Assembly: GCA_019136435.1 (NCBI GenBank)
Contig: JAGVUD010000253.1
Location: 1-37,632 of the forward strand
Origin: Armatimonadota bacterium
GTDB taxonomy: Bacteria; Armatimonadota; UBA5829; DSUL01
DNA length: 37,632 bases
Direction of reading: 5' to 3'
The position numbers and the translations under genes are program-made. Each line of letters begins with the position of its first letter. Positions within the stretch are counted from its first letter, which is position 1. Below the pieces are notes generated by a model. The model was given only the letters and a program-made list of their open reading frames with translations, ran no database searches and had not been told where the DNA came from. Positions 815 through 33,994 of the stretch are shown piece by piece.

Positions 815-2854
815 CTAGAGCCTGACGACATCGCTGCTGCCGGGCTGAATGGCGCGGCCGAAGAGCGCCGGCGCGATGGCGAACGTGGTGCTGATGCCGG
901 TGACCTTCACCATTGTGCCCGGTGTCAGTGTGCCCGCGCCTTGCAGAATCCGTACCCCGATGTTCGGCTGCCCCGCGGTGTCCGTGCCATCCCGCAGAGC
1001 AGAACCGTCGTCAATGTAGAAATACCCGCCGCCAACCTGAGTCACCGCGCCCCGCACCGTCACCAGCAGCCCGATGTTGTTCGGGCCGTACCCGTCCGCA
1101 AAACCGGGGAGATTCGGCGCGACCGGCGCGCCGCCCAGTTCGCGCAGACCCATACAAAGCGAGCGCGGAATGAGCGCCGTCGCACTCACAGCCGGGGCCG
1201 CAAGGCAGATCACTCGCGCTCCATCTCTGGTTCCCACGACGCCGGTGACGGACATCTTCGCGGAGGGGATGACGTTGTAGAGCTGGGTCGCGGCCACGGC
1301 GATTCCGGACGAACGATCCGGCTCTTCGATCCAGAAGCCGTTTCCCACGCGCCGGGTGACGACCTTGTCCGCCACCTTCACGATGGCCGAGTCGGGGAGC
1401 GTCTTCGCCTCTCCGATGGACATGACAGGCGGCGATATGACGGTGATGCCGTCGCTGGAACCCACGGGACCATACGTCCCCTCGTCATTGCGGGCTTTCA
1501 CGTTGAAGTAGTACGTGCCCCCCACGGCCAGGGACAGCGGCGCCCGCGTGACTTCCGTCGCGAGCCCGGCGTTCATCCAGTTGCAGACGTCCGTCGCGCC
1601 CGGAGACGTGCCGATGGAGTACTGGTAGTTCGTGATCCCGGACTCGGGGTCGCTTGCGGAATACGTGCAGTGAAGCTGCGTGGCTGCTCCGGTGAACTCC
1701 CCGTCATCCGTCACGACTGCCCGGCCCGGCGCTGTATAGTCGAGGTCGTAGACGTCCCAGTCATCGAGAATGGCGACGCCCCAGCTGTTCTCGGATCCGC
1801 TTCCGCGCGCCTCCATCCTCAGCTCGAGGCCCACGCTACCGCGCAGCCACCCTGCCCAGCGCCAGACGAGTTCGTACCACTCTCCGTTGTCCATCACATC
1901 CCCCGGCGTATAGAACACGCCGTAGTTCACAGTTTCCCCGTCGACCCGCCAGTCCACCACCGTGTGCGTCGCTTCACCCGCGTACCCCTCAGTGTCCCAG
2001 CCATAGATGTGCCCGCGCAGGGTAAGCGCGCGGTATCCGGCGGTCATGAACGCGTACTGGTAGAGCGAGCTTCCACCGAGGCCCTGATGCCCGTAGCACC
2101 CCAGCGCTTTGCCCAGGTTGAAGGGCGCGGAAGGCGATCCGGGCGGGCCCAGCCAGTTGGGGCCAACAATCTGGCTTGCGCGGTCGCTCCACCAGCCCGG
2201 GGCGGCGTCCATCGAACCAACCGGGCCGCACAACTCAAAGCCCGGATTCACCAGATAGCCCTGTCTCGGCGGCCGGGGAGGGCTGATATCCAGGCTCCAG
2301 CCGTCCGCCGCCGCGATGCCCCACCCACCGCTTCGTCCGTCGGCCTGACACATGATCTCGACCTTGACTGTGTTGATGACCTGGCCGGTCCACTGTATCT
2401 CGCAGTTCACCCACTCCTTCTCGACCGTGCCCTTCGGATACCAGCCGCAACGCGCGACTACGCCGTCAACGGTGAGGCGGAGAAGCACCCGGCTGTCGGC
2501 TCCGTAGAAGCCCTTCGGGGTCCAGACCCAGGCGAAGCCGGCGAAAGTGATGGTGTACGTGCCAGGAGCAGCGACATTGACCGTCTGGCTGCCGGTGCCC
2601 GACCCGAGAGAGTCCAGGGCCTGAACGCCGACGGCCTTCAGGCCATTATAAGGGATGAGACCTTCCTGGCCGTTATCGGCGATAACAAGCAGGCTGCCGT
2701 TGTTGGACCAGTTCGGCCCGAGCGCCGGGCTGCCAGCCGCGCCGGCCAGTTCGAAGTCGCCATTGACCAGGCGATCCTCCGCCTCCGCTGGAAGCGGCGG
2801 CGTCAGGACAAGTAGAAGCAGCAGAAAGAGCAGAGCACGAAACGCGTATCCCAT
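815..2854 (-). CDS. exported multidomain carbohydrate-binding-like protein with Ig and double OB-like C-terminus
   Basis: A 679-residue protein with an obvious signal peptide (leucine-rich core, then PAEAED) and a GGAGG Shine-Dalgarno site 7 bases before the ATG. Residues about 28-190 and 197-370 are two domains opening with the pattern L-V-N-G/P-x-F-E-L, typical of CBM4/9-like jelly-roll modules. Residues about 370-470 form an Ig/FnIII-like domain containing SASDPESGI. Residues about 475-679 are two tandem OB-like modules: one with IGEAK near the start and EPDRSSGI, then one with LLVTVRGAVT, FYIDDGSA and MVKVTGI. The last 300 residues are clearly related to the C-terminus of the protein encoded at 4201-7650. 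I see no catalytic domain, so it is probably a surface binding or scaffold protein. It follows the metallohydrolase gene by 72 bases on the same strand. Confidence 0.85.
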   Translation of the reverse strand: MGYAFRALLFLLLLLVLTPPLPAEAEDRLVNGDFELAGAAGSPALGPNWSNNGSLLVIADNGQEGLIPYNGLKAVGVQALDSLGSGTGSQTVNVAAPGTYTITFAGFAWVWTPKGFYGADSRVLLRLTVDGVVARCGWYPKGTVEKEWVNCEIQWTGQVINTVKVEIMCQADGRSGGWGIAAADGWSLDISPPRPPRQGYLVNPGFELCGPVGSMDAAPGWWSDRASQIVGPNWLGPPGSPSAPFNLGKALGCYGHQGLGGSSLYQYAFMTAGYRALTLRGHIYGWDTEGYAGEATHTVVDWRVDGETVNYGVFYTPGDVMDNGEWYELVWRWAGWLRGSVGLELRMEARGSGSENSWGVAILDDWDVYDLDYTAPGRAVVTDDGEFTGAATQLHCTYSASDPESGITNYQYSIGTSPGATDVCNWMNAGLATEVTRAPLSLAVGGTYYFNVKARNDEGTYGPVGSSDGITVISPPVMSIGEAKTLPDSAIVKVADKVVTRRVGNGFWIEEPDRSSGIAVAATQLYNVIPSAKMSVTGVVGTRDGARVICLAAPAVSATALIPRSLCMGLRELGGAPVAPNLPGFADGYGPNNIGLLVTVRGAVTQVGGGYFYIDDGSALRDGTDTAGQPNIGVRILQGAGTLTPGTMVKVTGISTTFAIAPALFGRAIQPGSSDVVRL

Positions 2855-2926
2855 CTCGCATCCTCCCGAAGACTCAGGATAGCAGATGCCGGCCCTGCTT
2901 GCACCCGGCCTGCCCCGAAAGGACTC

Positions 2927-3916
2927 CTAGCGCTCCCGATGGCCGCAAACCCACACGGGCTGGGTGAGAGCCAGGCTGCCGTCGGATGCCTGGACGCGGG
3001 CCCGGACGTAGCCCTCTTCGCCCGTGAACCGGTACGCAGGCTGGAGCCCCTCGACCTCGGACAGCACTTTGCCGCCCGAGCCGATGAACCGAGTCACAAA
3101 CCCGCTCCGGCTGTCCGGGCTGATGGTGAGTGAGATTCCCTCCTGCGTGCTCAGCACGTCGCTCAGTTCCACTCCGGTGGACGCGTAGAAGTCGCCCTTC
3201 TCGATTGAGTTCATCACGTCTTCGCGGGTCAGCCGGTCTGCCTTCACGACGATCCAGCCCTTGCCCGGGCCATCGGGATGCCCCTCGGTGTACCTGTGCG
3301 CGTCGTCCGAGCAGACACCCCAGATGACTTTGCCGCCCGTTAGAAGATCGTCCCATATCGCCTCAACGGGCGGACGGCCGTTTGCCGGGTCGCCTTCGTT
3401 GTTGCAGCCCGAACCCATGTTGTACACCTCGAGCAGCGCGGCGCCCTTCACCGGGCGGATGTCGTCCACCGAGAGTCCCCACATCCAGTTCGGATGGTTC
3501 ACCTGCATAATGCCGCCGGCTTCGCGTATGTCGTCGGCCATCATCTGCATGGTCTCCGCGGGCGTGGCGCCGCGGCGCGAGTCGAGTTGCGCGCTGATGT
3601 TGAGTCCGCAGGTGTGCGTCTGCTGACCCAGAGGAATCGCGGCCAGTTCGGTCCCCGGAATCAGGATGAAGCTCTCGGTCTCGATGCCGTCAAGCTCAGC
3701 CGGGTCGGTCAGAATGTAATGGTCGGTGATGGACAGGAAGCTGTACCCGTGGTCGCGGTACCAGCGGGCGACTGCTTCCGGCGGCAGATTGCCATCGGAC
3801 TCGGTGGAGTGGCAGTGCGTATGCCCCTTGAACCAGCGCGCACGGGCGGCAGGCTGCCCCGTCATGAGCAGGGCCGCCGCGAAAAGAGCGGGAAAGGTGC
3901 GCGAGAAGAGTGCAAT
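2927..3916 (-). CDS. CehA/McbA-family PHP metallohydrolase, probably exported
   Basis: PHP-domain metal-dependent hydrolase. The metal-binding motifs are in order: HTHCHSTESDG near the mature N-terminus, SITDH, a Glu-containing LIPGTELA strand, VNHPNW and CSDDAHRY. This is the CehA/McbA branch, whose described members hydrolyse carbamate or phosphate esters, but many members next to polysaccharide genes have no known substrate. The first in-frame ATG (3865) has no Shine-Dalgarno site and would start inside a hydrophobic stretch. Reading upstream gives a complete signal peptide (ALFSRTFPALFAAALLM, then PAARA) back to an ATT codon at 3914-3916 that has AGGAG at 3923-3927, 6 bases away. No ATG, GTG or TTG occurs in frame there, so I place the start at this ATT. 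The family assignment is firm; the start and substrate are inferred. Confidence 0.85.
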   Translation of the reverse strand: MALFSRTFPALFAAALLMTGQPAARARWFKGHTHCHSTESDGNLPPEAVARWYRDHGYSFLSITDHYILTDPAELDGIETESFILIPGTELAAIPLGQQTHTCGLNISAQLDSRRGATPAETMQMMADDIREAGGIMQVNHPNWMWGLSVDDIRPVKGAALLEVYNMGSGCNNEGDPANGRPPVEAIWDDLLTGGKVIWGVCSDDAHRYTEGHPDGPGKGWIVVKADRLTREDVMNSIEKGDFYASTGVELSDVLSTQEGISLTISPDSRSGFVTRFIGSGGKVLSEVEGLQPAYRFTGEEGYVRARVQASDGSLALTQPVWVCGHRER

Positions 3917-4042
3917 TGTTGTCTCCTGTGATCCGAAGTGCGTCCCGCCATCCGAATGGTGTGTTCGGCGCGCGGAATTCTGATTCCTGTCTGTACGAAA
4001 TCATTCATTATCTGCGCAAACCGGTAATACCGCGCCTGGCAG

Positions 4043-4071
4043 TTGACTTCCGCGACTCCGCGCCGTAAACT
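4043..4071 (+). promoter_or_regulatory. sigma70-type promoter for the GHL10 glycosidase gene
   Basis: TTGACT (4043-4048), a 17-base spacer and TAAACT (4066-4071) give a good housekeeping promoter pointing at the gene at 4201, leaving a 5' leader of about 120 bases. The leader has a CCCCC/GGGGG pairing potential (around 4107 and 4162) and AAGGAG at 4184-4189, 11 bases before the ATG. I do not recognise a riboswitch in it. The rest of the 284-base gap (3917-4042) must hold the promoter of the leftward genes; no clear one is visible. Confidence 0.6.
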
Positions 4072-4200
4072 GCTAATAGTATCTTCATATCATCCCCAGC
4101 GACCTACCCCCTTTCTGGCAACTCCGGCGTGAGATCGGCTCAGAACGGGCAGAACTGCGACGGGGGCTGAAGGGACGTCATCTAAGGAGTACGTACACGA

Positions 4201-7200
4201 ATGTCACTTTTCAGGACTGCATCCCTGATTCTTGCCGCCTGCGCGATCCTTGCGATAGGGCTGGCGCAGCCGGCCGGGGCACAGGAGTACCGCGCGTTCT
4301 GGGTGGACGCGTGGGGCGCGGGTTTTCTGAACCAGAGCCAGGTTGACGCGCTCCTCGGGGTCCCCGGGGTTGCGGGCAGCCTCGGCACGATCCGCGAGGC
4401 GAACTGCAACGCGGTTATCGTGCAGGTACGTCGCCGGGCCGATGTCTGCTATCCGTCCGGAATGGGCGAACCGTATTTCAGCAGCGGGCTCTCGCCGTCG
4501 AACTTCAATGCGCTGCAGGCGATGATCAACGCAGCGCACGACACTACGGGCGGGAAGAAGCGCGTAGAAGTGCACTGCTGGCTGGTCGCATTCGCGACAG
4601 GGTCATCGAGCACGACACCCCAGACGGAGAACATCTACTGGAAGCACAACATACCCGGCGTTTCGGGTGACCCGTACCCCAACACAGTCGCCGACCAGTG
4701 GACGACGCTCAGCGACTCGGGGGCTGAGACCTCCGACAAGGCGCTCGACCCGGGCCACCCGGATTGCCTGCAGTATCTGAACGACGTCGTGATGGACATG
4801 GTCAACAATTTCGACATTGACGGCATCCATTACGACTACATCCGCTTTACCGCCAACAATCAGGGGTACAACCCGACGAGCGTGGCGCGCTACAATGCGC
4901 GGTACGGGCTTACCGGGCAGCCCGCTTCCACCAACGAGCAGTTCAAGCAGTGGCGGCGCGACCAGGTAACGGCGCTGGTGCGTAAGGCCTACGCCAACAT
5001 CCAGGCATCGAAGCCCTGGGTGAAGCACTCGGCCGCAGTGGTGACGTGGAACCCATCGCCGGCATCGTCCACGCGCGACGCGTTCAAGGCCACCCGGCCC
5101 TACTACGATGTGTATTCGGACTGGGACGCGTGGATGCAGGAAGGGATTCTGGACATGAGTGTCCCGATGACCTACTACAACCAGGCATCGCTTCCCACCG
5201 ACTTCCTGAAATGGAGCAACTTCCAGAAGGACCGGCGCGCCAACCGGTTTAACATCGTCGGTCCGGGCATCTATCTCAACTCGCTGACGAACGCGATCAA
5301 TCAGTTGAAGTCCACGCGTAACCCGTCCACCTGGAACGGCGGAATGGCGCAGGGATTCTGCGGCTACTCGTACAGGGTGCCCTACTCCGGCGGGACATGG
5401 TCGGGCTTCGCGCCGTCGCTTCTTTCTCAGGTAACACCGGCATGGGCCGATGTGCCCCAGATGCCGTGGAAGGTCTCGCCCACTGAGGGGCACATTCGCG
5501 GAACGGTGACGATTGCGGCGACCGGCAAGGCCGCCGATCACGCCATCGTAACGATGACGGGCCCCGAGAACCGCACGATGTACGTGGACGGCACGGGCTT
5601 CTATGCCTTCATTGACCTGACTCCCGGAACGTACACGCTCACGGCCACGCTCGCGGGCTATCCAAACGCGCAGAAGTCGCAGACGGTTACGCTGGGGGAG
5701 GTGACGGGGAACATGTACACGGTGGACCTGCAGCTCGGCGGCACCAGCCCCGGCGCGCCGGTCATCTCGAACGTGGCCGCATCTAACGTGACGAACAGCG
5801 GCGCAGTCATCACATGGCAGACCGATCAGGGAGCGACATCGCAGGTGGACTATGGCACCTCGACGTCCTACGGCAACTCGACCGCGCTCGACACGAACCT
5901 GGTGACGTCTCACTCGCAGACCCTGACAGGGCTTCTGCCGAAGACGCCCTACAACTTCCGCGTGAAGTCGAACAACACGAACGGAGACTCGACGTCTTCG
6001 AACTACACCTTCACGACGAGCGGCGCCCCGGCGATTTCGAATGTTCAGGTCACGAACATCCAGTCGAACAAGGCGACGATAAGCTGGTCCACTGACGTCC
6101 CGGCGGACAGCACGGTGTCGTACGGCCTGACAACGGCGTACGGGAACAACGTTTCGGACGCAGGGATGGTGACCTCGCACTCCCTCACACTGACCGGCCT
6201 GAGCGCCAACACGACCTACAACTTCAAGGTTGCGTCGCTGAACGCTTACGGCGTGGCTCAGACCGCCAATGCGACGTTCTCTACCCCCGACCCCGCAACA
6301 GAAATCGTGGTGGACAACCTCGACCCGGGCTGGGAGAACACATCGCCGAACGGCAATTCGTGGAGCGCAGGCAGTGTTGAGGCCGTGCCGAAGATCAACA
6401 CGAACTACCTCTACACCGCCGGTTCCGGTTCGCTGACGGTCGGTTCCACCACCAGAAGCTGCACATGGACGGCGGATCTGCCGCGGGCGGGTTACTACGA
6501 CATCTACGTGTTCTACCAGAAGGGCACCAACAGGAACGAAGCTGCGCCGTTCACGGCCTATTACGATGGGGGCAGCGTCGAGAGCATCCAGAATCAGAAC
6601 GCCCCGATAGCCAACCAGGGCGGCTGGTTCGTGCTTGCCGAGAACGTTCCCTGCGCGGCGGGGACAGGGTCGTATGTGGAGCTCTCCAACCTGACGCTCG
6701 ACACCAAATACGTGAGCGCGGACGCGGCGAAGTGGGTGTACAAAGGCCCGATTGACGACACCGCCCCGGTGATGGGCGTGGTCACAGACGAGAGCTACAC
6801 CACCTCCACGACAACGCTCGAGGCGTCGTGGTCGGCCAGCGATCCCGAGTCGGGGATTAAGAGCTACGAGTATGCCGCAGGAACGACACCCGGGGGTACG
6901 GACCTGAAGGACTGGACGGCGAACGGCACGAGCACCTCGGTGACGATCACGGGGCTGAGCCTCACGGCCGGTTCGACGTACTACATCAGCGCGCGCGCCA
7001 CCAACAACGCCGACATGACTTCGGCCGGCCGGTCATCGGCGGGCGTTGCCGTCGCGGTGGAGGTTCCGACCATAGGCGACGCAAAGAAACTCGCGGACGG
7101 AACGGCTGTGAAGCTCGCGGGCAAGAAGGTCTCGGCGGCAACGGCGGACTGGACGGCCGTTCAGGAGCCCGGCCGGAGCGCCGGGATACGGATCCCCGGA

Positions 7201-7650
7201 GCGTCGGGCCTGGCCGCGGGGCAGACGGTGGACCTGTTCGGCAGGCTCGCCCTGAGCGGCAACGCCGAACGGATTCTCTCGGCGCCCATGTTTGTGGCGG
7301 GCGACGAGGGAGCCGCGCCGAAGCCTCTCTTCCTCGCGCAGAGTGTGCTGCTGACAGAGCAGTTCAGCCAGCACACCCCGGGCATCTTCGGGGGTGTCGG
7401 GCTGTCGAATCAGGGGCTTCTCGTCTCGCTGGCGGGCAGGGTATTGACGGTTACGGCCGAAGGCTTCCTGCTGGATGACGGCTCGGGCTGCGTTTGCCCC
7501 GACGGAACCGGAATCAAGGTTCTTGCTCCGGGCGTGCCCGCCCAACTGCAGGGAACCTGGCAGAAGGTCACCGGCATCGCGAGCTGCTACGAGGAGAACG
7601 GGCAGATATTCCCTCAGGTGTTCATCACAAGTCTGGCCACTCTGAACTAG
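4201..7650 (+). CDS. exported GHL10 (DUF187) family glycosidase with FnIII, golvesin-like, Ig and OB-like modules
   Basis: 1149 residues with a signal peptide (ILAACAILAIGLAQPAGAQ). Residues about 25-425 are a GHL10-type TIM barrel: EYRAFWVDAWG at the N-terminus, NAVIVQVR, FDIDGIHYDYIRF and VPMTYYNQ are characteristic. Then come a carboxypeptidase-regulatory-like beta-sandwich (about 430-515), two FnIII domains (about 519-605 and 608-695, each opening with ISNV), a golvesin C-terminal-like carbohydrate-binding domain (about 700-850, with AGYYDIYVFYQKG), an Ig/FnIII domain with SASDPESGI (about 852-950) and two OB-like modules (about 955-1149, with LDDGSG and WQKVTGI). The last two sections match the neighbour at 815-2854. 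It is presumably a cell-surface or secreted polysaccharide hydrolase; the substrate cannot be read from the sequence. It is monocistronic, with its own promoter and terminator. Confidence 0.9.
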   Translation: MSLFRTASLILAACAILAIGLAQPAGAQEYRAFWVDAWGAGFLNQSQVDALLGVPGVAGSLGTIREANCNAVIVQVRRRADVCYPSGMGEPYFSSGLSPSNFNALQAMINAAHDTTGGKKRVEVHCWLVAFATGSSSTTPQTENIYWKHNIPGVSGDPYPNTVADQWTTLSDSGAETSDKALDPGHPDCLQYLNDVVMDMVNNFDIDGIHYDYIRFTANNQGYNPTSVARYNARYGLTGQPASTNEQFKQWRRDQVTALVRKAYANIQASKPWVKHSAAVVTWNPSPASSTRDAFKATRPYYDVYSDWDAWMQEGILDMSVPMTYYNQASLPTDFLKWSNFQKDRRANRFNIVGPGIYLNSLTNAINQLKSTRNPSTWNGGMAQGFCGYSYRVPYSGGTWSGFAPSLLSQVTPAWADVPQMPWKVSPTEGHIRGTVTIAATGKAADHAIVTMTGPENRTMYVDGTGFYAFIDLTPGTYTLTATLAGYPNAQKSQTVTLGEVTGNMYTVDLQLGGTSPGAPVISNVAASNVTNSGAVITWQTDQGATSQVDYGTSTSYGNSTALDTNLVTSHSQTLTGLLPKTPYNFRVKSNNTNGDSTSSNYTFTTSGAPAISNVQVTNIQSNKATISWSTDVPADSTVSYGLTTAYGNNVSDAGMVTSHSLTLTGLSANTTYNFKVASLNAYGVAQTANATFSTPDPATEIVVDNLDPGWENTSPNGNSWSAGSVEAVPKINTNYLYTAGSGSLTVGSTTRSCTWTADLPRAGYYDIYVFYQKGTNRNEAAPFTAYYDGGSVESIQNQNAPIANQGGWFVLAENVPCAAGTGSYVELSNLTLDTKYVSADAAKWVYKGPIDDTAPVMGVVTDESYTTSTTTLEASWSASDPESGIKSYEYAAGTTPGGTDLKDWTANGTSTSVTITGLSLTAGSTYYISARATNNADMTSAGRSSAGVAVAVEVPTIGDAKKLADGTAVKLAGKKVSAATADWTAVQEPGRSAGIRIPGASGLAAGQTVDLFGRLALSGNAERILSAPMFVAGDEGAAPKPLFLAQSVLLTEQFSQHTPGIFGGVGLSNQGLLVSLAGRVLTVTAEGFLLDDGSGCVCPDGTGIKVLAPGVPAQLQGTWQKVTGIASCYEENGQIFPQVFITSLATLN

Positions 7651-27497: not shown

Positions 27498-27581
27498 TGG
27501 TGGGCGAGAGGAGACTTGAACTCCTACGCCTCGCGGCACCAGATCCTAAATCTGGCGTGTCTGCCATTCCACCACTCGCCC
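27498..27581 (-). tRNA. tRNA-Leu (anticodon TAG)
   Basis: The acceptor stem GGGCGAG/CTCGCCC closes a class II tRNA with a long variable arm (TGCCGCGAGGCGTA), anticodon loop TTTAGGA giving anticodon TAG, and T arm with GTTCAAGTC. The discriminator is A and the CCA end is encoded (27498-27500). It reads CUA and, by wobble, other CUN leucine codons. Confidence 0.95.
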
Positions 27582-27648
27582 AGGCAACCCGCGTTGGGCG
27601 CCCCGCGTTCGGCGGCCGCCGGACACGCGCGGGGCGCAAACTGGAGAA

Positions 27649-27721
<73 letters not shown>

Positions 27722-27901
27722 ACGGCCCAACCGGGCGCCGGGTTTAGCGGCGCTCGAACGGACTGAGCTGCCGGAGGCGGCCGCTGGCAACAATGCGCGT
27801 GGCGCATTAGCATAACGACGACAGCCATATGGCCGGCCTCGCTGCGTCTTTTCCTGACGCACAAGAAGCACCTGGGGCGCCTCCGGCAACGATGAACATT
27901 T

Positions 27902-27975
27902 CGCGCTTGGAGGGACTCGAACCCCCGACCCTCTGATCCGAAGTCAGATGCTCTAATCCACTGAGCTACAAGCGC
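27902..27975 (-). tRNA. tRNA-Arg (anticodon TCG)
   Basis: 74 bases with acceptor stem GCGCTTG/CAAGCGC, D arm AGCTCAGTGGATTAGAGC, anticodon stem TCTGA/TCAGA with loop CTTCGGA giving anticodon TCG, and T arm GGTTCGAGTCC. The discriminator is G and CCA is not encoded. It is the first of the three leftward tRNA genes, with a promoter about 41 bases upstream. Confidence 0.95.
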
Positions 27976-28527: not shown

Positions 28528-29501
28528 GCGGCGCGCCCCCCACATTTCAACGTCTGCTGAACCTTGCGCAGGAGGGGATTCCCCTTACCCCGCGCCCCTT
28601 CGCCGAGATGGGCCGCGCCTGCGGCCTGAGCGAAGGCGAGGCGCTAGCGATGATGGAACAGGCTTACGCGGAGGGCCTGGTGCGGGAAACCAGCGCCATC
28701 TTCGACGCCGCGGCGCTGGGCTACAAGAGCACGCTTGCGGCAATGCGGGTGCCACCGGAGCGGCTGGAACGAGCGGCCGCCTGCGTGAGCCGTCACCCCG
28801 GCGTGAGCCACAACTATGCAAGGGACCACGCTTACAACCTCTGGTTCACGCTCGCCGCGCCGGGCACGGCAAATATCGAAATGGAACTCCGGCGGCTCTC
28901 GGAAGAAGCGGGGGGGTGGCCATTCCACAGCTTCCCCACGCTTAAGCGCTACAAGATCGGGGTCAGGTTCGACCTGACCGGCAACTCCGCTTCCTCCGGT
29001 TCGTCCGCGGCGGATGCTCCGTCGCCCATCGTGCTGGATGAGGAGACCCGTCGCGCAGTCCGGGCTCTGCAGGACGATCTTCCCCGTACGCCGCGCCCGT
29101 TCGCCGTTCTGGCGGCACGGGAGGCGATGACGGAAGAGCGGCTGATCGAGGCGGCCAGGCGTCTGGCGGCATCCGGCGCAATGAGGCGGCTTGCTTCGGT
29201 GGTGCGGCACCGGGCGGCGGGCTATGTGAGCAACGTGATGAGCGCGTGGGACGTGGCGGAGCACGAGATGGACCGGGCGGGCGAGGCACTGGCCGCTCTG
29301 CCGAGCGTGAGCCATTGCTACCGGCGGCCTTCGTACAGCGACTGGCCCTACGAGCTGTTCGCGATGATCCACACACGGTCGGAAGAAGCCACCGCGGCGG
29401 TGGTGAGCGAGGCGGAGTCGGCTATCACCCCGCGGCGGTATCTGCTTCTTCGCAGCGTTCGCGAGTTCAAGAAGGAGCGCATCCGGTTCTTCCGGGCCTG
29501 A
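28524..29501 (+). CDS. fused siroheme decarboxylase AhbA-AhbB (Lrp/AsnC-like)
   Basis: 325 residues made of two homologous Lrp/AsnC-like halves. The N-terminal half (about 5-155) has PLTPRPFAEMGRACGLSEGE, ETSAIFDAAALGYKSTLAAM and HPGVSHNYARDHAYNLWFTLA, like AhbA. The C-terminal half (about 170-325) has LPRTPRPFAVLA, MRRLASVVRHRAAGY and SVSHCYRRPSYSDWPYELFAMIH, like AhbB. The pair decarboxylates siroheme to 12,18-didecarboxysiroheme, for the alternative haem route or haem d1 (there called NirDL, also sometimes fused). A Ser/Ala-rich linker joins the halves. GTG at 28524 overlaps the folB stop. No ahbC, ahbD or nir gene is in the window, so the end product is open. Confidence 0.88.
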   Translation: MSGAPPTFQRLLNLAQEGIPLTPRPFAEMGRACGLSEGEALAMMEQAYAEGLVRETSAIFDAAALGYKSTLAAMRVPPERLERAAACVSRHPGVSHNYARDHAYNLWFTLAAPGTANIEMELRRLSEEAGGWPFHSFPTLKRYKIGVRFDLTGNSASSGSSAADAPSPIVLDEETRRAVRALQDDLPRTPRPFAVLAAREAMTEERLIEAARRLAASGAMRRLASVVRHRAAGYVSNVMSAWDVAEHEMDRAGEALAALPSVSHCYRRPSYSDWPYELFAMIHTRSEEATAAVVSEAESAITPRRYLLLRSVREFKKERIRFFRA

Positions 29502-29830
29502 CGGCGACGCAAAGCGGAGCATTGGCGCGGCCGCGCAACAGCCGCCCGGGAAGGGACCATCACAAGGGCTTGCGAAGACTCCAGTTGCAGGCGCAAAGAC
29601 CCGAATATTCCCATGTCATGTGCCAGCCGGATACGTGCGGCGCATTCCCCGCCATGACGGATGAATTAGAGCGGGCGGCACTTGATCGCCTGACGCAGTT
29701 GTGTCGTGACGAACGAGTCAGGAAATTGCGCTTGTTTCGCGGCGCGGAACCCGAGGAACCCTTGAACACACATTCCGTGGAGAAGAACCCATTGCACTCT
29801 GGTATGGACAGGAGGGGGAAGGAGGCGCAA
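29502..29830 (+). other. 329-base gap without a recognised gene
   Basis: This stretch is somewhat less GC-rich than its surroundings. The reading frame of the next gene stays open through it, and from ATG 29654 it would add 59 charged residues (MTDELERAALDRLTQLCRDE and so on) before the signal peptide. That ATG has no Shine-Dalgarno site and would bury the signal peptide, so I do not annotate it as coding. No clear promoter or terminator was found. Confidence 0.5.
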
Positions 29831-32800
29831 GTGACCCGCATACACTCAGCGATGATTACGCTCGCCGTGCTGACCGTCCTTTGCGGCGCGGCGCTTTCGC
29901 CGTCCCGGGCAGCCACGTTCATCGTCAACTCGCCGGCGGACACGGATGATGGTATCTGCGATGGCGTGAACTGCACACTGCGCGAAGCGATCAACTCGGC
30001 CAACGCGAACCCGGGTGGAGATGTCATTGTTTTCACGCTTGGCTCGGGCACACCCTCCATCCAGCCCGCGACGCCGCTGCCGCAGATCACGGACAAGGTG
30101 GTGATTGACGGCGGGATCGGCGGGGCAACGCGCGTTGAGTTGAACGGAGCGCTCATAGAGACCGAGGCGACCGGACTGCACCTGACATCGGCTGAGAACA
30201 CGCTGCGGTCTCTCGTCGTCAACGGGTTCAATGGCTACGGCATCGAGCTTTCCGGGGGAGGCGGCAACAGGGTTGAGAACTGCTTTGTGGGATGCAGCGC
30301 CTCCGGCATGGAAGCCAGTCCAAACCGCCTTGCGGGCATTGCGCTCACGGGGTCATCGGGCAATCTGCTGGTCAGCAACGTCCTGTCGGGCAACACGAAC
30401 TCGGGGGTTATCATCTATCAGGGCGCGGGAAACGTCATCCGGGGCAACTACATCGGAGTCGCCGTGGACGGCAGCACGAAGCTGCCGAACCAGGACGGCG
30501 TGATTCTGATTGACACAGCGAACAACGCGATCGGGGGAACTGGCTCCGCCGACGCCAATATCATTGGCGGGAACACCTCGGACGGCATTGAGATGCACGG
30601 TCTGCAGTGCAGCGGCAACAAGGTGCAGGGCAACACCATCGGCACGAACTCGAGCTGGGCCAATCTGGGCAACGGAGACGACGGCGTCGAGTTGAACATG
30701 GCGGCCCGATGCAACTCGATTGGCGGCGCAAACGCATTCGAAGGCAACGTGATTGCTTTCAGCGGCGCCAGTGGAGTCGAGATCGCCTCGACGTGCGTTG
30801 ACAATGTGATTCAGGGCAACTCGATTACGTCCTGCGGCCTCCTCGGCATTGACCTTGCGCCCATCGGCGAGGTGAACCCCAACGACGACCAGGACACGGA
30901 CACGGGCGCCAACGAGATGCAAAACTACCCCGTGCTGTCCAGCGCCGTGGCGTGGTTGGGCGGCATGACCATCACCGGATCCCTGAGCGGACAGCCCCTG
31001 CAGAGCTATTATCTCGAGTTTTTCACAAATGACGTGTGCGGCCCCGAGGGCGTGGGATTCGGCAGGACTTATCTCGGCTCATTCCGCCTGTCGGTGGATG
31101 AAAACGGCGCGGGACCGTTTCAGGCGGACTTCGCGACGAGGACACCCGGCTCTCTGGTAACAGCCACCGCAACCGACGCGAAGGGGAATACGTCGGAGTT
31201 CTCAGCGTGCTGCCCCGTGGAGAGGATCATCCGCGTTCAACAGAAGGCCACGCGCGACCCGGTGATGGTTGGTGGCTCGGTGGGGCGCAAGTTCTCGCTG
31301 TGGGGGTCTGTGATCCCGATCGACGAGAACAGCTTCCGGCTCAGCGACGGTTCGGGCGTTACCGTGCTGGTTGACGCCCCCGGGCATGGCATGCAGCCGG
31401 GCGCTTTCGCGCGGGCGGAGGGCACGCTTGACGTCAGCGCCGGGGAGTCCCTGCTCGCCAGCTCGGCCGGACATATTGTGACGCAATCCGACCTTCTGCC
31501 GCCCCAGATCACCGTCAGCAGTCCTTCCGTGGAGCGCACGCGCTTCGGGCCCGTTGACTTCCTGATCACATATGAAGGCGCTCAGATGATCACTCTGGGT
31601 GACGGTGACGTCGTCCTTCACAAGACAATGACCGCGGATGGAGTCGCGCAGGTTCTGCCGCACGGCCCAAACACGCGGCTTGTGAGGATCAGCGACACGA
31701 CGGGCGACGGGGCGATCTCCATAGAGATACTGCCGGGAACGGCGGTGGACAACTCAGGAAACGTTGCTTTGGGTACCACCCCGAGCGCGGGCGTCGTTGT
31801 GGATAACACGCCGCCCTCCGTGACGATAACCGGACCCTCGGTGCAGACCACAAGCGGCGGCCCGGTTGACTACGTTGTGAACTACGCCGGGGCCGCGCGC
31901 ATTACGCTTGGCCTTAGCGATGTCACCGTGCACGCGACAGGTGACGCAACCGGGTCTGTGAGCGTGTTCGGGAGCGGGCTGCTTGCACGAACGATCAGGC
32001 TCTCTGGCACCGAGGGGAACGGCACCCTGGCGATATCGGTGGCGGCCGGCACCGCGGCCGATTCGCTCGGCAACTCGGCGCTTGCCGCCGGCCCGAGCGA
32101 CCCGGTGCAGATCGTAACGCCGCCGACGGAGATAACGATCGGCGATCCCTCGGTGTTCCACACCAACACCGGCCCGGTCGTCTATCCGGTTCACTACACC
32201 TATGCAACGGTGATCACGCTCAGCGAGGCGGACGTAACCCTCAATAAGACGGGGACCGCGGATGGAACCGTCACAGTCTCCGGCTCCGGCATCTACGACC
32301 GCGAGGTGACGATTTCGAACGTCACGGGGGACGGCACGCTCGGCATCTCGCTTGCGGCGGGGACGGCGAGCGGATCTGGCGGGACAGCCTCCGAAGCCGG
32401 CCCCAGCACACCCTTCAACGTGGACAACGTGGCCCCCGGCATCAGCGTGAGCGCGCCATCCGCCGCTCTGACAAACACCGGACCCGTGACGTTCGATGTG
32501 ACGTACGCCAGCGCGGATGCTGTCACGCTGGCGAACGAAGACGTCACTCTCCTGAAGACCGGCACGGCTGACGCGGCCCTTGAGGTGAGCGGCAGCGGCA
32601 CGGAATCGCGGACGGTGACGCTGTCTTCGATTACCGGTGACGGGACGCTTGCGATTGCCATCGGCGCGGCCACGGCCTCGGACCTCGCCGGAAACCTTGC
32701 GCCTCAGGCGGACGCAAGCGCGGCGTTCGAGGTGGACAACACCGCCCCGGCCGTTGAGATCGGTCAGCCGAGCGTGGCGATTACGAACAGCGGCCCCGTC

Positions 32801-33994
32801 ACCTTTGCCGTCACCTTCACAGGCTTCAGCGCGACGACGCTCACTGAGGCTGACATCACACTGCACAAGACGGGCACCGCGGACGCGACGCTCGCGCTGA
32901 GCGGTTCGAGCTCCGATTACACAGTGACGCTGTCCAACACGTCCGGCGACGGGACATTGAGCTTCTCCATCGCAGCCGGCACGGCCGTGGACGCCGCGGG
33001 GAACCTGGCGGCCGCGGCGGGGCCGGGAGCGGAGGTGACGATTGACAATATCGCGCCCGCAATCAGCGTGAGCGGGCCGTCGAAGACGCTCACGAACACG
33101 GGCCCGGTGACGTTCACGGTGACCTACACCGGCGCGGACATCATCACGCTGAATCCCTCCGACATCACGCTCAACAAGACGGGAACTGCGGACGCGACGG
33201 TTGAGGTGAGCGGAGACGGCAGCACGACACGAACGGTGACGCTGCACGCGATCACAGGCGACGGGACGCTCGGCATCAGGGTCAATGCGGATTCGGCCTC
33301 GGACTTTGCCGGCAACCTTGCCCCGGCGTCCAATGCAACCAGCACGTTCGCTGTTGACAACACCCCGCCGGTAGCGATCATCAGCAACCCGAGCAAGTAT
33401 CTGACGACCGCCGGGCCGATCGTCTACACCGTGACCTACCAGAACTACAGCAGCATCAGTCTGACTCCGGCGGACATCATCCTGAACAAGACGGGCACGG
33501 CGGACGGGACGGTGACGCTGAGCGGTTCGACCGCAGTGCGGACTGTGACCATCTCGAACGTCACGGGCGACGGCACTCTGGGCATATCGGTGGCCCCGGG
33601 AACGGCCGTGGACACGGCTGGCAACCTGGCGCCCGCCGCCGGACCGAGCAACACGTTCACGGTGGACAACACACCTCCGACAATCACGCTGACGGGCCCC
33701 TCGGTGCCGTCAACCATCTCCGGTCCGGTGGACTTCCGCGTTACGTATGGCGGGTTCAGCAACATTTCGCTGTCAGCGGCGAATGTGACCATCAACAAGA
33801 CAGGCACGGCGACGGGCAGCGTCTCCATACTGTGGCTGTCGGTGAGCGAGCGGATGATCCGGGTGCACACGATCTCAGGCAACGGCACGATCGGGGTCTC
33901 GATAGCCCCCGGCACAGCCATTGACTGGGTATATCTGACCGCTCCGGGCGCCGGCCCGAGCGCGACGGCTGTCGTGGGCAGCGGCAATCCTTAG
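29831..33994 (+). CDS. giant exported CSLREA/beta-helix protein with eight Ig-like repeats
   Basis: 1387 residues from GTG 29831, chosen because GGAGG lies 5 bases upstream and a signal peptide follows at once (MITLAVLTVLCGAALSPSRA). Next is a CSLREA domain (FIVNSPADTDDGICDG, NCTLREAINSANANPGGD; about 30-75), then a right-handed beta-helix of NosD/parallel-repeat type (about 110-350, repeats such as GNVIRGNYIGV and NKVQGNTIGTN), an FnIII-like segment, one OB-like module (about 462-555) and eight tandem Ig-like repeats of about 104 residues to the end. It lacks an LPxTG, PEP-CTERM or type IX sorting signal. It is probably a secreted or surface adhesin or polysaccharide-binding protein; no catalytic motif is evident. 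Confidence 0.87.
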   Translation: MTRIHSAMITLAVLTVLCGAALSPSRAATFIVNSPADTDDGICDGVNCTLREAINSANANPGGDVIVFTLGSGTPSIQPATPLPQITDKVVIDGGIGGATRVELNGALIETEATGLHLTSAENTLRSLVVNGFNGYGIELSGGGGNRVENCFVGCSASGMEASPNRLAGIALTGSSGNLLVSNVLSGNTNSGVIIYQGAGNVIRGNYIGVAVDGSTKLPNQDGVILIDTANNAIGGTGSADANIIGGNTSDGIEMHGLQCSGNKVQGNTIGTNSSWANLGNGDDGVELNMAARCNSIGGANAFEGNVIAFSGASGVEIASTCVDNVIQGNSITSCGLLGIDLAPIGEVNPNDDQDTDTGANEMQNYPVLSSAVAWLGGMTITGSLSGQPLQSYYLEFFTNDVCGPEGVGFGRTYLGSFRLSVDENGAGPFQADFATRTPGSLVTATATDAKGNTSEFSACCPVERIIRVQQKATRDPVMVGGSVGRKFSLWGSVIPIDENSFRLSDGSGVTVLVDAPGHGMQPGAFARAEGTLDVSAGESLLASSAGHIVTQSDLLPPQITVSSPSVERTRFGPVDFLITYEGAQMITLGDGDVVLHKTMTADGVAQVLPHGPNTRLVRISDTTGDGAISIEILPGTAVDNSGNVALGTTPSAGVVVDNTPPSVTITGPSVQTTSGGPVDYVVNYAGAARITLGLSDVTVHATGDATGSVSVFGSGLLARTIRLSGTEGNGTLAISVAAGTAADSLGNSALAAGPSDPVQIVTPPTEITIGDPSVFHTNTGPVVYPVHYTYATVITLSEADVTLNKTGTADGTVTVSGSGIYDREVTISNVTGDGTLGISLAAGTASGSGGTASEAGPSTPFNVDNVAPGISVSAPSAALTNTGPVTFDVTYASADAVTLANEDVTLLKTGTADAALEVSGSGTESRTVTLSSITGDGTLAIAIGAATASDLAGNLAPQADASAAFEVDNTAPAVEIGQPSVAITNSGPVTFAVTFTGFSATTLTEADITLHKTGTADATLALSGSSSDYTVTLSNTSGDGTLSFSIAAGTAVDAAGNLAAAAGPGAEVTIDNIAPAISVSGPSKTLTNTGPVTFTVTYTGADIITLNPSDITLNKTGTADATVEVSGDGSTTRTVTLHAITGDGTLGIRVNADSASDFAGNLAPASNATSTFAVDNTPPVAIISNPSKYLTTAGPIVYTVTYQNYSSISLTPADIILNKTGTADGTVTLSGSTAVRTVTISNVTGDGTLGISVAPGTAVDTAGNLAPAAGPSNTFTVDNTPPTITLTGPSVPSTISGPVDFRVTYGGFSNISLSAANVTINKTGTATGSVSILWLSVSERMIRVHTISGNGTIGVSIAPGTAIDWVYLTAPGAGPSATAVVGSGNP
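31502..33970 (+). repeat. eight tandem Ig-like coding repeats
   Basis: Units begin near 31502, 31811, 32123, 32432, 32744, 33053, 33364 and 33675, about 310 bases each. The shared pattern is: P-x-I-x-V-x-x-P-S, then N-T-G-P-V-x-F-x-V-T-Y, I-T-L, D-V-T-L-x-K-T-G-T-A-D, a V-S-G-S-G turn, R-T-V-T, T-G-D-G-T-L-G-I-S, A-A-G-T-A, A-G-N-L-A and V-D-N-T-A-P. The central units are most alike; the first two and the last are more diverged. Confidence 0.9.

Follow-up and report, generated by a model that had tools for sequence, protein, structure and literature searches.

Why do two neighbouring genes, whose exported products have unrelated N-terminal parts, end in the same way, and what might this shared end do after export? 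The genes lie on a contig (JAGVUD010000253.1, assembly GCA_019136435.1) of an Armatimonadota bacterium of UBA5829, which in GTDB is a class of its own (PMC8957277). The whole stretch of DNA that we analysed, 37,632 nucleotides, is called the window below; the genome that it comes from amounts to 3.43 Mb in 548 contigs and is 81% complete. Genes A and B are divergently transcribed and separated by an ORF on the minus strand (2927-3865), and both start with a clear Sec signal peptide. Their features are the following.

815-2854, minus strand: gene A, exported 679-aa protein with a signal peptide, two NGDFE-type repeats, an Ig/FnIII domain and the double-OB module at the very C-terminus
1454-1744, minus strand: Ig/FnIII-like domain of cassette A (SASDPESGI, GTSPGATD)
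818-1453, minus strand: double-OB module of cassette A, reaching the last residue of the protein (profile match, E 3.2e-65)
4201-7650, plus strand: gene B, exported 1149-aa GHL10 protein with a signal peptide, GHL10, CarboxypepD_reg, two FnIII, Golvesin_C, Ig and the double-OB module
4390-5229, plus strand: GHL10 glycoside-hydrolase-like domain of gene B (PF02638, E 6e-32)
6751-7041, plus strand: Ig/FnIII-like domain of cassette B (SASDPESGI, GTTPGGTD)
7072-7299, plus strand: first barrel of cassette B (OB1), with five strands; its profile shows a relationship to the YgiW/BOF family
7300-7416, plus strand: connector between the barrels of cassette B, strongly conserved (consensus LGG...PGV.GG.GLNNIG, here VGLSNQG)
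7417-7626, plus strand: second barrel of cassette B (OB2), with five strands and the DDGS turn; its profile weakly matches OB domains that are RPA14-type or nuclease-associated

The ORF between the two genes encodes 312 aa and is PHP-type metal hydrolase-like by eye; a Pfam search at 1e-5 gave no match. Elsewhere in the window we noted three clustered tRNA genes (Leu, Lys, Arg; 27498-27975, minus strand) and a 1582-aa beta-helix/NosD-like protein (29246-33994, plus strand) containing a lone weak OB2-like unit at 31280-31447 (E 0.004). Lone OB2-like matches also occur in several further ORFs of the genome.

A first-pass annotation of this DNA had described a cassette, an Ig domain followed by two OB-like modules, shared by both proteins and sitting on glycosidases. 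We observed that the C-terminal 309 and 299 residues of the two proteins align from end to end (blastp E 2e-34, with 35% identity and 52% positives), with a Smith-Waterman score of 370 versus 42 ± 6 for shuffles. Compared separately, the Ig parts and the OB parts both show significant similarity. The N-terminal parts, as claimed, are unrelated, with a score of 44 versus 44 ± 6 for shuffles. The motifs named in the annotation are all present, except that the forward copy, that of gene B, ends in QKVTGI and not in VKVTGI. The mention of glycosidases holds for gene B, whose GHL10 domain scores 111 bits against a curated PF02638 cut-off of 27.9, but not for gene A, in which a Pfam search found no domain; its two NGDFE-type repeats, which are part of this silence, look jelly-roll-like by eye.

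The annotation had also considered that the two regions could adopt different folds. The AlphaFold2 models of both cassettes, for which the input alignment had 65 members (mean pLDDT 95.7 for cassette B and 92.4 for cassette A), show instead the same order, one Ig/FnIII-like domain and then two OB-type barrels. In cassette B the predicted strands are 119-130, 134-138, 145-149, 159-168 and 174-183 for OB1 and 224-234, 238-242, 255-258, 270-282 and 285-292 for OB2, mostly with a pLDDT above 90; these are two five-stranded barrels with the strand order of the general OB fold. Foldseek searches of the PDB with both models returned FnIII proteins, for the first domain only, and the OB assignment of the barrels comes from strand order and profiles. 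The core module is about 200 aa long and comprises the two barrels and their connector. Polar residues (K, Y/E, R, ER, NN and D) are conserved and clustered in OB1, the connector and OB2, and they belong, with the connector (LGG..PGV.GG.GLNNIG), to the best conserved positions, the conservation of the connector being exaggerated because the relatives in the 65-member alignment were retrieved via a pattern inside it.

When profiles were compared, the OB1 half matched BOF/YgiW (PF04076) in 4 of 27 members (best E 4.4e-5, range to 6e-5) and the module profile matched YgiW (PDB 1nnx) in the same half with an E of 0.0076. The OB2 half gave a weak match, E ~0.01, to RPA14 and to an endonuclease/exonuclease/phosphatase-domain protein, with the same DDG turn, and the OB1 and OB2 profiles match each other (E 3e-6). 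By these profiles the module appears to be related in fold to BOF/YgiW, without being filed as a BOF member. VisP, a Salmonella relative of YgiW, was reported to bind peptidoglycan (PMC5636140); by analogy, this may be taken as a lead to the ligand of the module, not as a test. Neither Pfam nor NCBIfam has a family covering the full module of ~200 aa, and our literature search found no paper describing it. The module is an undescribed domain family.

How widely is it used in this genome? A search with cassette B gave 89 matches, and a search with a 27-member profile gave 115, corresponding on the retrieved contigs to 109 module copies in 99 ORFs, some of which are contig-end fragments, so that the number of genes is somewhat lower. 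The annotation had left room for a genome in which no other protein ends with the module; on the contrary, there are ~99 carrier ORFs, in which it is mostly C-terminal. The earlier observation is thus real and larger than first described, and genes A and B are two ordinary members of the carrier set. Among the 87 ORFs with a real stop, the module lies within 30 residues of the protein end in 79 and within 10 residues in 73, and in complete ORFs it is C-terminal in 53 of 56 cases, where uniform placement would give 5.7. The other 8 of the 87 extend well past it. Internal copies are found right behind the signal peptide or upstream of an FGE-sulfatase, metalloprotease or GDSL hydrolase domain, and two proteins carry triple tandem copies. 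At one locus (L037, contig C364), three carrier genes adjoin each other, two with triple tandem modules, one of these modules' hosts at the locus being an arabinofuranosidase-like protein. Immediately N-terminal to the module, about 20 of the ~99 carriers have an Ig/FnIII domain, which is an optional part of the cassette and is not essential.

Of the 66 carrier ORFs that start within their locus, 52 have a signal peptide by a simple rule, versus 95 of 305 other long ORFs. The N-terminal parts of the carriers are highly diverse, with 82 sequences matching 141 Pfam families. Carriers inspected singly include GHL10, GH5, arabinofuranosidase and phosphodiester glycosidase; other enzyme passengers are subtilase, GDSL lipase, N-acetylmuramoyl-alanine amidase, phospholipase D-like, alkaline phosphatase and metallophosphatase, and WD40, beta-propeller, Laminin-B, NosD and CBM-like repeats also occur. 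What the passengers have in common is export, not substrate.

This bears on the main rival to a role in attachment, namely that the OB pair acts like a carbohydrate-binding module (CBM), binding an external polysaccharide or other polymer and keeping the enzymes on their food and not on the cell. OB folds are named for oligosaccharide/oligonucleotide binding, glycosidases and CBM-like repeats are found among the carriers, the internal copies adjoin catalytic domains, and the family-level clade UBA5829 was reported to be rich in glycoside hydrolases (PMC9671151). However, subtilase, alkaline phosphatase, amidase, PLD and WD40 passengers have no common substrate, and the C-terminal placement is stronger than a CBM requires. 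We consider this explanation rather unlikely, while a serious one.

We then surveyed the class and the phylum. In the class, 24 of 28 genomes hold at least 22 module copies each (up to at least ~76), and four have none, G008, and G009, G013 and G025 (84-99% complete; two genera, two families). In the rest of the phylum, 7 of 263 genomes have one match each (E <= 1e-10). The module is again C-terminal in 79 of 93 ORFs from 79 loci of other genomes, the remaining 14 continuing well beyond it. Named records with the module are from Armatimonadota, including UBA5829, with one record labelled Abditibacteriota; the wider contig scan relied on one peptide pattern, which rare divergent copies in other phyla could escape. 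The scan of viral contigs gave a single locus, L213 (IMGVR_UViG_3300050581_000179), encoding an NlpC/P60-Ig-double-OB protein; the surroundings of this gene look bacterial, and L213 is probably bacterial DNA in a viral collection. Several 'PPVISYQGKLMQP' exported proteins are encoded beside it. The survey, with its ~99 carriers in one genome, at least 22 copies in 24 of 28 class genomes and single copies in 7 of 263 others, favours the suggestion of the first-pass annotation that the cassette may serve for anchoring or for binding a polymer, as a unit specific to this lineage. The annotation's idea of an exchange between the two neighbours had to be given up. In the tree, cassettes A and B are not sisters (distance 3.1 versus a genome-wide median of 3.3), and their nearest relatives lie in other parts of the genome, on C482 and C457 for A and on C219 for B.

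Two GHL10+CarboxypepD_reg proteins were seen outside the class; one (L206) ends in a divergent module plus a hydrophobic basic tail and the other (L208) in one OB unit plus a type I dockerin. In the genomes of family f28, each with a single full module copy, the module occurs once, internally, in proteins of 2,200-3,300 residues (L214, L215, L217), and a conserved stretch several hundred residues long comes after it; a scan of L214 gave CARDB, NIDO and FnIII domains. These out-of-class architectures suggest that the pairing of GHL10 with OB units seen in gene B may predate the class, and that other proteins may have acquired copies of the module from a source of this kind. The divergent copies on these GHL10 enzymes, which possess a hydrophobic tail or a dockerin as well, also suit a CBM-like function; as these relatives pair the module with another possible anchor, it need not anchor there.

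A further explanation is that the module is a neutral structural appendage, a stable C-terminal cap that spread by gene fusion and duplication and has no specific ligand. Its copies are indeed highly divergent, with about 25-40% identity, and it is optional in related proteins, since GHL10 proteins from two zero-copy genomes terminate in a different domain. Strong conservation of the polar residues and of the inter-barrel connector across these copies, and the retention of dozens of copies across the class, make such a neutral role very improbable.

The annotation had also raised a sorting signal. The class could have a dedicated machine for export across the outer membrane, with the module as its C-terminal secretion signal, in a role like that of the T9SS CTD. 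Dozens of diverse Sec-exported proteins carry the module at the C-terminus, in a diderm (Omp85 is present in 28 of 28 class genomes), it is confined to one class, and four class genomes have no copy, as expected if tag and machine vanish together. A purely C-terminal signal nevertheless fits poorly with copies placed right after the signal peptide or before FGE-sulfatase, metalloprotease and GDSL domains, and with the two proteins carrying triple copies. In addition, the NCBIfam models of T9SS (Por-secretion) CTDs matched none of the 27 module members, and no machine was identified; SprA_N was found in 0 of 28 class genomes, a result to be read with the fact that 14 control genomes were equally silent. 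A cleaved sorting tag is less likely because of the internal copies, the triple tandems and the absence of any tail, and we regard a sorting role as improbable.

We therefore return to attachment, for which the distribution of dockerins is of interest. No module-rich genome has more than 2 dockerins, whereas in 41 other genomes of the phylum there are 5 to at least 21 of them and never more than a single full copy of the module. The distribution of type I dockerins across Armatimonadota is very uneven, most genomes outside these 41 having 0-2 matches. The contrast fits one attachment device replacing another; it is a single evolutionary contrast, and the mutual exclusion may stem from a single event.

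Non-covalent attachment looks most likely to us because one terminal pair of barrels, occasionally in triple copies, is found on dozens of unrelated exported proteins that have no further anchor, and we hold with about even confidence that the module is a non-covalent C-terminal attachment unit. It is nearly always the last domain on ~99 ORFs with 109 copies, its carriers are enriched in signal peptides, and it expanded within one class, in whose module-rich genomes dockerins are few. In 73 of 87 ORFs the protein stops within 10 residues of the module, which leaves no room for another C-terminal anchor, and passengers without a common substrate suit a location tag better than a substrate-specific CBM. 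Conserved polar residues cluster in both barrels and the connector, and both barrels resemble OB families, OB1 being like YgiW, whose relative VisP binds peptidoglycan according to the report cited above. On the other side, OB folds bind nucleic acids and proteins too, sequence cannot separate secreted from surface-held proteins, and no ligand, receptor or partner gene was identified. The survey of neighbouring genes gave no module-specific family; the commonest one, general prepilin/DUF1559-like by eye, was seen at no more than 11 loci, with 9 members adjacent, so a dedicated neighbour gene was rejected.

In the mechanism that we propose, the cassette would be a mobile exported unit, with the two tandem OB barrels and their conserved connector as its core and the Ig/FnIII domain as an optional spacer. 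After export, the module would bind non-covalently a ligand common to the class, the candidates being peptidoglycan, a glycan of the cell surface or matrix, or a receptor in the outer membrane. Enzymes and adhesive proteins would thereby be retained on the surface of the cell or on one common polymer, in a mode of action like that of SLH domains or dockerins elsewhere, and triple copies could provide avidity.

Because the module is an unannotated domain family found on a large share of the proteins exported in an uncultured class, dozens of 'hypothetical' surface proteins per genome become recognisable at once, and there is a concrete handle on how these diderm bacteria retain proteins outside. 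The four class genomes without the module offer a ready comparison for a partner search and, if it is an attachment domain, the module could be used to tag proteins for surface display or to immobilise enzymes.

The module can be compared with several known families. The BOF proteins YgiW, YdeI and VisP (PF04076, TIGR00156; PDB 1nnx) come close to it through the OB1-half matches given above and are likewise exported OB proteins, but they are single free periplasmic domains, whereas the module consists of tandem barrels ending large proteins and is not covered in full by BOF. With the OB domains of RPA14 and extracellular nucleases (PDB 8c5y, 9sf8; PF01336) it shares the DDG turn aligned with the OB2 half, at weak similarity, and the endonuclease/exonuclease/phosphatase domain was not seen among the carriers scanned singly. 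PEP-CTERM, MYXO-CTERM (PMC11980579) and LPXTG are likewise lineage-wide C-terminal tags on exported proteins, but their tails consist of a transmembrane helix and a basic tail; tags of this type were rejected, since module proteins stop at the barrel. Type I dockerins and SLH domains resemble the module in their C-terminal position, unrelated passengers and possible repeats, and in other families of the phylum dockerins fill such a role in comparable numbers; the module has no sequence or fold relation to them, and no cohesin-like or SLH-ligand-like partner was identified. The T9SS CTD is a short single Ig-like domain. Like the module, it is a C-terminal domain common to dozens of diverse exported proteins in one lineage; the module, in contrast, has 200 aa and two OB barrels, is sometimes internal or in triple tandem, and is not strictly C-terminal (8 of 87 ORFs in this genome and 14 of 93 in relatives run well beyond it), and we rejected a T9SS-type tag on the lack of a CTD match and on the internal and tandem copies. 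More tentatively, the class may possess a surface-display system of its own, in which a tandem-OB domain on up to ~100 exported proteins per genome would address one receptor or polymer and which would have been lost whole in at least two genera; its domain would parallel T9SS CTDs and dockerins, with a fold unrelated to theirs.
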